A DNA stretch of 64,000 nucleotides, from positions 36,321-100,320 of the forward strand of contig CACAIY010000003.1 in assembly GCA_902532675.1 (NCBI GenBank). Reading direction: 5' to 3'. Of this stretch, positions 57,688 to 61,431 are shown one piece after another. The first letter of the stretch is position 1; each line of letters opens with the position of its first letter. This stretch comes from an uncultured SAR86 cluster bacterium. Lineage in GTDB: Bacteria; Pseudomonadota; Gammaproteobacteria; Magnimaribacterales; Magnimaribacteraceae. The position numbers were made by a program, and so were the translations under genes. The notes beneath the pieces are model-generated. The model worked only from the letters and a program-made list of their open reading frames with translations, was not told where the DNA came from and made no database searches.

Positions 57688-58431
57688 TTACATGCCTCTC
57701 ATTGGACGGCCAATATACTCTCTAGGATTAGAGCAAGAAAAACCTTTTAAATTATCTGAAGCTTCAGATCCATCAAGCTTGTCCCAATATAATTCTTGGT
57801 TTACTCCCATACCATCTATAGAAGATGTGTATAGCAGCCTTACAAAGTCAGCGTCGCCATCATAACCAGCTGACGGAAAAATTATTTTTCTACCTACAGT
57901 GTCTCCTTGAGATTGAGCGTATATTGCAAAGTCTTTGTAAAGATCATAAACCTTTCTGCCGTCGTAACCTTCTTCAAATTTACAATCAGTATATACGGCT
58001 ACCATCAAATCGCCTTCTTCTGGATCAGCAGGAGTTGAGATAACCCACTGAAATGTACTTACTTGTCTAGAATTCGTGAGAGGTAAACTCTTTAGCAACT
58101 CAGGACCTCCTTGAGTCATCCAAGCATTAAGAGCTGCATATTGTGCAGACTGAGTAGGGAAATTATTTACCCACATTGCATCCATTGAAGCGAGGTCAGC
58201 ATGAAAATAAGGAGTCAGAATTGCGATACTCATATCATCGTATACACCTTTGTCTTCTGCCCATTTTGAAAATTTTCCATACCACTTTACTAAGTCATCT
58301 AAATCTTTACCTTTGTTAAATTTGCCTATGTAGTATTCAGCTGCATTACCTTCAGGTTCATACTTATATTCGCTATCTTCGGCAAAAAGACCAATAGAAA
58401 ATACAAGCATTAAGCTTAAAATATATTTCAT
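57688..58431 (-). CDS. Secreted protein of unknown function
   Basis: Signal peptide MKYILSLMLVFSIGLFA; long clean ORF with its own terminator. Confidence 0.75.
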   Translation of the reverse strand: MKYILSLMLVFSIGLFAEDSEYKYEPEGNAAEYYIGKFNKGKDLDDLVKWYGKFSKWAEDKGVYDDMSIAILTPYFHADLASMDAMWVNNFPTQSAQYAALNAWMTQGGPELLKSLPLTNSRQVSTFQWVISTPADPEEGDLMVAVYTDCKFEEGYDGRKVYDLYKDFAIYAQSQGDTVGRKIIFPSAGYDGDADFVRLLYTSSIDGMGVNQELYWDKLDGSEASDNLKGFSCSNPREYIGRPMRGM

Positions 58432-58610
58432 AAATTTCTCCTATAGAAATAGTTATTAATTAAAGATACTAAACGGAGTTCTCTGCGGAGTAAACACTTT
58501 ATAATTTTTCTAAATTCAAAGTTGATGATAGGCTAACCAAATAAAACACCTAACCATCTCATCCTAATAGTGACTTAAATAAACTTGAATACTATAATTC
58601 GCGCCTCTTT

Positions 58611-58653
58611 GGGCGATTAACTCAATTGGTAGAGTGCCACCTTTACACGGTGG
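58611..58653 (+). pseudogene. Truncated tRNA-Val(TAC) duplicate (5' half through the anticodon stem)
   Basis: 43/43 nt identical to 61265-61307; T-arm and acceptor 3' strand missing. Promoter-like TGACTT-N16-TATAAT precedes both copies. Confidence 0.85.
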
Positions 58654-58665
58654 TAATTTCGACCC

Positions 58666-58706
58666 AAAAACCCCTTCAAATCAACAAAAAACCCCTATAA
58701 ATCAAC
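58666..58706 (+). repeat. Two 20-nt imperfect direct repeats; related copy at 61343-61362
   Basis: AAAAACCCCTTCAAATCAAC and AAAAACCCCTATAAATCAAC; after the intact tRNA: CAAAATCCCTTTAAATCAGC. Confidence 0.7.
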
Positions 58707-58745
58707 ATTCTATTTTCAAGAAATAGGGTAGGATTAGAGGTAATT

Positions 58746-58767
58746 GGCAATACATAGGCAATACATA
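58746..58767 (+). repeat. Perfect 11-bp tandem repeat GGCAATACATA x2
   Basis: Read directly: ATTGGCAATACATAGGCAATACATAGAT. Confidence 0.85.
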
Positions 58768-58875
58768 GATTTGTATAGGGAGTCATTAGTTTATTGTTCA
58801 AAGTAAGATCACAAATAAAAATGAGACACTTTGTTGAAAATCATATAAGGTAGATTAAATTTTCTGGAGCAAGTC

Positions 58876-59949
58876 ATGACAAAAAATTTAGTCATTATTT
58901 TACTCTCTTCAATAATAATTTCTGCGTGCGGAGGAGGGGGTGGTGGAAGCTCATCAACACCTATAGTAAATTCAGGTTCAGGTTCTGGATCTACTTCAAC
59001 TCCAACTTATTCTTATGACGAGGTGAGTGCTAATTATAATGGAAAATCTTGGGATACTTTTTCTCAAATGAGAAGAGCTATGTCAGGCGGTATAGCAACA
59101 GGTTTTTCTGGTTTTTCAGATCATCCTTCAAATATATCTATTACGGAATATTCTAATTATATAGAAATTGTTCTCGAAGGATCCACAAACGGACTTGAAG
59201 AATCTTTTAGCTATGATTTCAATCTCACTGATACCAATACATCCGGTGACCCTTTATACAATGCAGATAATCAGGTGGTAGCTTATTTATTTACTACAAA
59301 TTTTAGTAATGCAACTCTGTATGGGTTTGTATTTGATACTGATGCTTTGTCATCCAACGCTGGTATTGATTATACGAATGTAGGTTTTTTAGATTTTGTA
59401 TTTTCTGATGGTTCAAGAGATACCTTTGCATTCAATTATGGCGATCTAACAGATTCTGGTGATATGCCAACCTCTGGAACTGCCTCTTATGAACTAGGTT
59501 CGTACATGATTTTTAATGCTTTTGTGCAAGGAGATGGTCGTTACAGTTCAAGCGATGATATATCTCTTGTTTCTCAAGGTGAAGGGGCACTAACTGCTAA
59601 CTTTGGAACAAATATGATTGATGGTTCGATTAACTTCACCAGATACTATTCTTACTATGATTTTTTGTACTACGGAGCAGATGCTCAATCCCAGATCCTT
59701 AATGTACCCTCAACTCAATTAACTATGTCAGGTTCTATGTCCTCTTCAAGCTTCACAGGAAGCGCTATTCTACAAGATGGATCAGATCTATACGGACAAG
59801 GGGTTTTTCAAGGTAGCTTTTTTGGCCCTAATGCTGATGAAGTTTCTGGTACCTTCCTGGTTGCAAAAGATCAAGATCAAGATAACTCTGGCGCTGACTG
59901 GTGGGATGTTGTAGGGACTTTTATAGGTTGCAAAACACCAGCTTGTTAA
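58876..59949 (+). CDS. Gly-rich lipoprotein with TbpB-like C-terminal beta-barrel domain (candidate Slam-dependent surface lipoprotein)
   Basis: Lipobox IISACGGGGGGSSS; C-terminal GQGVFQGSFFGPNADEVSGTFLVAKD resembles the TbpB barrel GxFyGpxAxExgGtF signature. Confidence 0.8.
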   Translation: MTKNLVIILLSSIIISACGGGGGGSSSTPIVNSGSGSGSTSTPTYSYDEVSANYNGKSWDTFSQMRRAMSGGIATGFSGFSDHPSNISITEYSNYIEIVLEGSTNGLEESFSYDFNLTDTNTSGDPLYNADNQVVAYLFTTNFSNATLYGFVFDTDALSSNAGIDYTNVGFLDFVFSDGSRDTFAFNYGDLTDSGDMPTSGTASYELGSYMIFNAFVQGDGRYSSSDDISLVSQGEGALTANFGTNMIDGSINFTRYYSYYDFLYYGADAQSQILNVPSTQLTMSGSMSSSSFTGSAILQDGSDLYGQGVFQGSFFGPNADEVSGTFLVAKDQDQDNSGADWWDVVGTFIGCKTPAC

Positions 59950-61196
59950 AATACTTTTCTTTTTTCTTAATTTGCTTTTATACGAACTTTTTCTTTACAA
60001 AAGAGATTCTTTATAAAGAAAAATTTTATAAGTCGCCTGATGATCTAGCTTCTTATTTATATCTTTCAAGAGACTTTGAGGATCTTTTTACCATTACACT
60101 CGAAGGTATTAATAACAAACAGAATTGCGAATTCAGAATACCTTTTGTTGAAAAATCTATTAGGGCTTCTTTCCAGAAAAAAAATAAGCAATTTACTGAA
60201 TTTCTTTATCAATCTGTAAGAGATTGTAAGGTCAATTATCCAATTGAAGAGACCTATCTTAAATATTTAATTGAAGAAAAGAAATTTGATGAAGCTATTG
60301 CTTTACGGAATAAGATTGGCGATAAAAGTTTTTATTTTAGGTTTCTTGAAGAAAGACTATTTATAAATTCAAGAAGATTGAGGCACGATCAAAATTTCTT
60401 TGTATCTCTTATGCAAAACTCTAATGTGAATAGTGGTTTTTCAGCAGATACCGTAAATCTTTATGGTATTCCTTTTGAAGTTTCAGACGAATCTGCTCCA
60501 AAAAAAGGTATTGGAGTTAAGTATGTTTATAAAGGTCAATCTTACGGTTATCTTAATGCTTCCTCTCAATTAAGAGTAAATACTTATTTATCTTACGAAG
60601 ATTATGAAGGAATAGAATCAGATAAATTAACTCCTTTTATATCCTCTGAGTTGGTGTTCAATAAGAATAATATGTTTGCCTTGGGTCTAGGTATCACAAG
60701 CTTTTCGGACCGCACTATTTATGAAACTCAAACTATTTCATACATGAGAAGGTTTCACCAATCCAATATCATTGATACTTTGAAGCTATCGTTGGGGAAT
60801 GTAAGGAGCCCAATAAACGAGATTAATAGCTCGATTTATAAAAATTTAGGCTTTCAAAAGAACTTAAATAACTTCTACCTTAATTTGGGCTACACTAAAA
60901 ATGATACTGCATTTGGTTTTTCTTCTTATAAAGAGATGGACTTCAAAATTGCTAAAACCTTTACTTTCAACTGGTTAAACATAAAACCTTTCTATCAATT
61001 CAAAAAAAGAAACTATGAATCAATTTGGAGTATTTATGGAAAGAGGAGGACATTTGTTCAAAACTATTTAGGTTTAGAGTTTTTTAATAAAGATAAACTG
61101 GGCTTAACAATCTCCAAATCTAATAATAGTTCTAATATTCCCATTTATGATAATGATGTTGATATGGTAGAACTTAGATTTAATATAGACATTTAA
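59943..61196 (+). CDS. Slam (DUF560)-like outer-membrane translocon
   Basis: Signal-peptide-like N-terminus (LLKYFSFFLICFYTNFFF), helical repeat segment, then SNVNSGFSADTVNLYGIPFEVSDESAPKKGIGVKYVY and a beta-barrel ending NSSNIPIYDNDVDMVELRFNIDI. TTG 59943 proposed as start; track uses GTG 59901. Confidence 0.75.
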   Translation: MLKYFSFFLICFYTNFFFTKEILYKEKFYKSPDDLASYLYLSRDFEDLFTITLEGINNKQNCEFRIPFVEKSIRASFQKKNKQFTEFLYQSVRDCKVNYPIEETYLKYLIEEKKFDEAIALRNKIGDKSFYFRFLEERLFINSRRLRHDQNFFVSLMQNSNVNSGFSADTVNLYGIPFEVSDESAPKKGIGVKYVYKGQSYGYLNASSQLRVNTYLSYEDYEGIESDKLTPFISSELVFNKNNMFALGLGITSFSDRTIYETQTISYMRRFHQSNIIDTLKLSLGNVRSPINEINSSIYKNLGFQKNLNNFYLNLGYTKNDTAFGFSSYKEMDFKIAKTFTFNWLNIKPFYQFKKRNYESIWSIYGKRRTFVQNYLGLEFFNKDKLGLTISKSNNSSNIPIYDNDVDMVELRFNIDI

Positions 61197-61264
61197 TCCC
61201 TTTTCGTCCTTAGAAAAACGAATGACTTTATTAAAGTTGAATAATATAATCGCACGCCACTTTA

Positions 61265-61340
61265 GGGCGATTAACTCAATTGGTAGAGTGCCACCTTTAC
61301 ACGGTGGAAGTTACAGGTTCAAGTCCTGTATCGCCCACCA
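61265..61340 (+). tRNA. tRNA-Val(TAC)
   Basis: Acceptor GGGCGAT/ATCGCCC, anticodon stem CCACC-TTTACAC-GGTGG, T-arm CAGGTTCAAGTCCTG, encoded CCA. Confidence 0.95.
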
Positions 61341-61431
61341 TTCAAAATCCCTTTAAATCAGCTTCCTGAATAATTCTGTATTTGCATCTTCATACGAGTT
61401 AAAGTGGATGAAGTATAGATAAATTAACTTC

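Follow-up and report, generated by a model that had tools for sequence, protein, structure and literature searches.

The locus studied here raises the question of whether two overlapping genes, placed between a fragment of a tRNA gene and its intact counterpart, form a complete system for exporting a surface lipoprotein, and how such a system came to occupy this position. Slam and type XI export has been studied mainly in bacteria associated with hosts. We analysed a window of 64,000 nucleotides, meaning the whole stretch of DNA under study, and compared it with genomes of the same family and order. The data make it likely that the pair is a two-gene type XI (Slam-like) lipoprotein export unit, residing on an integrase-less tRNA-Val(TAC) cassette of a streamlined marine gammaproteobacterium; translocation activity, surface display and mobilisation in trans are properties that we infer.

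The first gene (58876..59949, + strand), delineated by ORF reading and domain search, encodes a 357-aa lipoprotein with a lipobox cysteine at residue 18, a poly-Gly/Ser linker, an N-terminal domain and a C-terminal TbpB-like barrel. By inspection the lipobox reads IISA-C, with the Cys codon at 58927 and GGGGGG and then SSS directly after it, and the frame carries the C-terminal motif GVFQGSFFGPNADEVSGTF, as a sequence-only reading of this DNA had described. That reading's assignment of a TbpB-like lipoprotein is likewise borne out, with PF01298 (TbpB_B_D) matching residues 197-336 (59464..59883, + strand), the predicted Slam-targeting barrel, at 44.1 bits against a Pfam curated cut-off of 26 (E 3.6e-11). 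The homologue in genome G009 also exceeds this cut-off, and the NCBIfam Slam-dependent lipoprotein model (slam_lipo) gives 1.6e-9 and 2e-11, under its cut-off. With the equivalog cut-off of NF041636 at 80 bits, the cargo's partial match scores 38.3 bits. Both hallmarks of a Slam-dependent surface lipoprotein, a lipobox and a C-terminal TbpB-like barrel, are present, and no match was found for the N-terminal domain (approximately residues 45-190). A PDB sequence search with the cargo returned AcfD, matched at the signal peptide and linker only, and was set aside. Separately, an unrelated 851-aa lipoprotein (L147:4686-7241) starts with the same CGGGGGGSS linker, and therefore the poly-Gly stretch is, as judged from these protein starts, a habit of the clade rather than a Slam signal, and hence not specific to cargo.

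The second gene can be read at its longest from GTG 59901, but more probably begins at TTG 59943, a codon that overlaps the cargo stop (TTGTTAA) and is followed by a signal peptide, yielding a 417-aa Slam-like outer-membrane protein (59943..61196, + strand). The proposed overlap with a gene encoding a helical N-terminal region and a barrel segment was thus confirmed, the segment in question, SNVNSGFSADTVNLYGIPFEVSDESAPKKGIGV, being barrel strand 1 and the loop after it. A homologous pair is found in G009 (L004:482-1534 and L004:1528-2814), again adjacent and with a TTG start across the region of the cargo stop; its cargo is 53% and its channel 35% identical to the protein in the window. As both frames are kept as adjacent ORFs in this second genome, they are real genes.

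The pair is bracketed by a 51-bp direct repeat (94%) of tRNA-Val, with truncated and intact tRNA-Val(TAC) copies 2654 bp apart. The truncated copy (58611..58653, + strand), attL-like, comprises the 5' 43 nt and stops within the 3' strand of the anticodon stem; it scores 28.5 bits with the Rfam tRNA model, just under the gathering score of 29. The intact, attR-like copy (61265..61340, + strand) forms the right border. In same-genus G014, the sequences corresponding to 58406-58529 and 61222-61349 are contiguous, so that the window holds approximately 2.69 kb net of extra DNA (58530..61221, from flank comparison), and the G+C content of the cassette, 32.7%, lies inside the window's range. In G013, of the same genus, both outer flanks are kept with different genes on both sides of the tRNA-Val; since G014 lacks the insert and G013 carries other genes there, the site is a hotspot. 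The two large G013 insert genes that flank the tRNA-Val (L086), of 511 and about 530 aa, are unrelated and have no Pfam match. The earlier account of a minimal cargo/translocon unit in a streamlined genome agrees with these data as far as the pair itself goes, but it missed the setting, an accessory cassette bounded by tRNA.

Behind the truncated copy lies a conserved attachment-like region of about 140 bp (58656..58795, + strand), which recurs in five more elements at tRNA-Val and in two of these is immediately followed by an integrase. The region contains two 21-bp direct repeats, AAAAACCCCTTCAAATCAACA and AAAAACCCCTATAAATCAACA (58666..58707, + strand; repeat family D2, from alignment), possible integrase arm-type sites, and a tandem 11-bp repeat, GGCAATACATA, present twice (58746..58767, + strand; from sequence and alignment). 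As single-stranded DNA the region displays no unusual folding (z -0.88), which makes an integron-like folded site unlikely.

Comparison with relatives gives the region further weight. A search of the family with the 5' 43 nt of the tRNA recovered truncated copies in the window genome, G023, G029 and G033, and a diverged fourth extra copy in G030; in these five family genomes the truncated copies end at the identical position and the 140-bp region that follows is conserved. G029, a single-contig genome, holds a 6.5-kb element at tRNA-Val(TAC) (L125:4418-10991) whose first gene encodes a tyrosine integrase (Phage_integrase, 1.3e-21; Arm-DNA-bind_3, 3.8e-6), and it is the place of this integrase that the cargo gene occupies in the window. 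G028 (L136) represents the empty counterpart, its flanks matching at 96% and overlapping by exactly 43 bp, i.e. the duplication. Three further cassettes have no adjoining integrase and carry other cargo: an insertion of about 1.6 kb in G023 (L124:3899-5488; empty site in G021) encodes a secreted trypsin-like protein (PF13365, 9.9e-27), while those of G030 (L096) and G033 (L126:4687-5665) have the same att-like region, no adjoining integrase, and short proteins. Searching the order with a sequence model of the att region yielded one strong unseen match (E 3.8e-15), in G058, of another family, where a truncated tRNA-Val and the att-like region at a contig end (L146:1-383) run into the beginning of an integrase gene whose product shares 67% identity with the G029 integrase, bringing to six the genomes with the same truncation. 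The 140-bp region is a real attachment-like module, and the G029 element is a candidate helper for the integrase-less cassettes. Weak matches of the att model in G085, G141 and G177 were rejected as chance, having no tRNA copy alongside. Scans of IMG/VR with the cargo, with the G029 integrase and with the att pattern found nothing, and so gave no sign of carriage in viral contigs.

It is nevertheless conceivable, although unlikely, that the unit is of Slam type and its tRNA flanks incidental, deriving from an old tRNA duplication or from an island replaced by homologous recombination. The unit has no integrase of its own, and none resembling that of G029 was found in the window genome, a draft assembly 82% complete. 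The promoters also bear on this point. The promoter-like site before the truncated tRNA (GTGACT-17-TATAAT, 58570..58598, + strand, identified by upstream alignment) is of the type of other relatives, and that of the intact copy (ATGACT-17-TATAAT, 61222..61250, + strand) is of the G013/G014 type. Recombination within the tRNA predicts that the resident promoter stays in front of the truncated copy, and this is the case in G029 and G023, whereas the arrangement in the window does not match integration in one simple step at a site like that of G014; either a previous insertion has left its scar in G013 and G014, or homologous recombination brought in the cassette with its truncated tRNA already attached, and an imported block already holding the fragment suits the view that the flanks are incidental. 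So does G009, where no match to the att region was found beside the pair, whose contig begins only 482 bp upstream, and the pair there thus appears in another setting. Against incidental flanks speak the truncated copies of six genomes, which end alike with the same 140-bp region behind each, the position of this region directly before an integrase in G029 and G058, and the clean empty and occupied sites of G028/G029 and G021/G023. Because of the promoter arrangement, movement in trans is something that we infer; on the sequence comparisons the cassette probably did move in this manner. Its place on an accessory insert between a broken and an intact tRNA gene suggests that the export system can come and go as an exchangeable unit of very small size.

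Returning to the likely reading, a Slam-like unit on a tRNA-Val cassette, we consider the descent of the channel. Against Pfam, the channel gave no match to PF04575 (SlipAM/DUF560) at E<=1 and none to TPR or TPR_Slam models, an outcome that the sequence-only reading had itself named as counting against a Slam/DUF560-like barrel; a PF04575 search over the window genome and an NCBIfam search of the channel likewise returned no match. The assignment nonetheless holds on three other grounds, namely profile alignment, a tblastn link and an AlphaFold model. As reference we assembled genuine SlipAM proteins of the class as full ORFs and compared profile to profile with hhalign. The two-sequence channel profile aligned with these Slams over residues ~149-421, the whole barrel (P 3e-6 to 9e-6, score ~50), whereas controls scored 12-22 overall: 12-20 for reversed and column-shuffled channel profiles and ~15 for an unrelated DUF481-like outer-membrane family and for the cargo family. 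The divergent Slam subset by itself matched the first 77 barrel columns only (P 0.0045), and an alignment of the window channel with its relatives reached 99% probability against Slams, mostly owed to the relatives. By tblastn, the channel matched the bona fide SlipAM protein of L060/L061 (38% over 61 aa, E 8e-5), which has a TbpB-like gene directly upstream, and here FFVSLMQNSNVNSGFSADTVNLYGIPFEVSDES of the channel corresponds to FSFALLPDSNINRAPSSRTVTIGGLPFLLSEDA. The barrel starts with NSNVN in a Slam-like opening motif, QNSNVN..F.ADTVNLYGIPFEVSDES versus PDSNINRAPSSRTVTIGGLPFLLSEDA, and SSNIPIYDN near the C-terminus is a Slam-like closing motif. Scanning genome contigs with the channel alone found nothing, and with the two-sequence alignment the G009 genome was the sole match. 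A PDB sequence search with a deep channel alignment was discarded, since only TPR-containing chains stood among the 60 best.

The AlphaFold2 model, built from a 33-sequence alignment that included Slams and hence in agreement with Slam homology rather than independent of it, has a mean pLDDT of 86 and a pTM of 0.75. It comprises a signal helix, seven helices (32-143) and 14 long strands (147-416), and residues 170-179 form a small hairpin. With the two close sequences only, the barrel was poorly predicted (pLDDT 50). Thus the 14-strand transmembrane barrel expected by the sequence-only reading is recovered (residues 147-416, NSNVN to SNIPIYDN; 60381..61190, + strand; AlphaFold2 and hhalign), and where that reading expected a TPR part stands a predicted periplasmic domain of seven helices in a TPR-like position (residues 32-143; 60036..60371, + strand; AlphaFold2) that no TPR or TPR_Slam model matches. 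The best PDB fold matches of the model are all outer-membrane barrels, with OmpG, itself 14-stranded, leading those listed by target-normalised TM-score (0.56-0.58). We conclude that the second gene encodes a divergent Slam/DUF560-like protein.

That these fold matches are general porins, BcsC among them, and that the channel escapes the SlipAM model, could be taken to mean that it is some other protein with a helical domain and a barrel, a PgaA/BcsC-like polysaccharide exporter or a porin, accompanied by a lipoprotein acting as periplasmic accessory factor. We regard this as highly improbable: the barrel has 14 strands against the 16 reported for PgaA (PMC8406197), its opening and closing motifs are Slam-specific, its partner has a Slam-targeting TbpB barrel, and polysaccharide-synthesis genes are absent among the pair's immediate neighbours. 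Least credible of all, and by our estimate scarcely probable, is that the channel, though related to Slams, has degenerated and no longer exports the lipoprotein, with both genes as passengers, for which the strong divergence and a G+C content of 28.8% in the channel gene versus 35.5% in the window may be cited, but the ORFs are intact and without stops, and adjacency and start overlap are kept in two genera at 35% identity, which argues for lasting selection on the pair.

The favoured interpretation, an export unit of Slam type, allows a mechanism to be outlined. The cargo would be exported by Sec, acylated at Cys18 and carried by Lol transport to the outer membrane. There, in line with established knowledge of Slams (PMC8406197, PMC12282271), its C-terminal TbpB-like barrel would be recognised by the 14-strand Slam-like protein, which would then pass the cargo through the outer membrane, leaving it lipid-anchored outside with its N-terminal domain displayed. 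The gene overlap permits translational coupling, and cargo and channel would therefore be made together. No terminator-like site was found, so that the promoter-like site in front of the truncated tRNA (58570..58598) may, speculatively, read into the cassette. Entry beside the tRNA-Val would follow the same site-specific recombination as for the integrase-bearing elements there, with the integrase supplied in trans or lost since. Tentatively, and with somewhat less than even confidence, we extend this to a wider scheme in which integrase-less tRNA-Val(TAC) cassettes, served in trans by one tyrosine integrase through the 140-bp region, let streamlined marine bacteria exchange surface and secreted functions, the present one compressing a full cargo and translocon system into 2.7 kb, possibly transcribed from a captured tRNA promoter.

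Among named systems, type XI (Slam) secretion is the closest. As in Slam systems with PF04575 and a TbpB_B_D cargo, a TbpB-barrel cargo lies beside a protein with a helical domain and a 14-strand barrel, the barrel start and end motifs correspond, and cargo precedes channel as in L061. Unlike them, the channel falls under Pfam detection and is short (417 aa), the two-gene unit sits on a tRNA cassette, and no TonB-dependent receptor is found by Pfam among the pair's nearest neighbours, the last as the sequence-only reading had held. The pair is thus ordinary in kind and unusual in its divergence and its minimal, tRNA-bounded accessory form. As the standard DUF560 model misses this marine channel, marine Slam systems are probably undercounted. 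The marine cluster 3 T11SS described for Rhodobacteraceae/Roseobacteraceae has DUF1194, glyoxalase and thymidylate-synthase genes alongside. Its channels seldom have a recognisable cargo gene next to them, and at loci where cargo is predicted it is a lipoprotein, 282-375 aa long, whose C-terminal part forms an eight-strand barrel (PMC12282271). The window resembles it in its marine free-living host and in a cargo size (357 aa) within this range, and differs in that none of the three neighbours is named by Pfam among the pair's nearest genes.

With regard to the cassette, tycheposons span 4-200 kb, and in Methylophilaceae repeats of the tRNA-Lys end precede islands of 330 bp to 42 kb (PMC10872708). 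Tycheposons, additive flexible islands and other tRNA-targeted elements of streamlined marine bacteria share with the elements described here a tRNA-gene target, partial tRNA repeats as cassette marks and, in full-length elements, a tyrosine recombinase. In the present case the repeated part is the 5' half of tRNA-Val; since the unit has only two genes, 2.7 kb and no tyrosine recombinase of its own, we do not class it as a tycheposon. Were the cassette mobile, a bacterium could acquire a surface protein and its exporting machine together in a very small unit, and this would also hint at a compact tRNA-cassette system for altering the cell surface in otherwise streamlined genomes.

Within the 35 family genomes, cargo and channel co-occur in two and neither stands alone in any: a close channel homologue is confined to G009 and the window genome, the same two genomes, and no others, in which TbpB_B_D is found. 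In another family of the order, G058, G064 and G071 encode TbpB_B_D proteins without an adjacent barrel gene (L037:3512-4816, L038:4629-5792, L039:4699-5892). A third, weak channel match within the family, in G031, is of a FecR-linked kind, and across 203 genomes of the order the channel profile (A2) recovered 12 further, weaker relatives; those whose loci were read adjoin FecR-domain proteins or CHASE2 cyclases. The FecR-linked barrels (L030-L036, L040) are clear profile relatives of the window channel, two exceeding the SlipAM cut-off, but differ in that they have recognisable TPRs and, at complete loci, adjoin large FecR-domain proteins or CHASE2 cyclases with no TbpB-like lipoprotein. Such TPR and barrel Slam-like proteins are conserved in the order (L031, L032, L034, L035, L036 and L040, with L030 and L005 at contig edges), and they adjoin genes for large FecR/cadherin-like proteins, CHASE2-cyclases and DUF481 proteins; they may represent another T11SS-like branch that handles different cargo.
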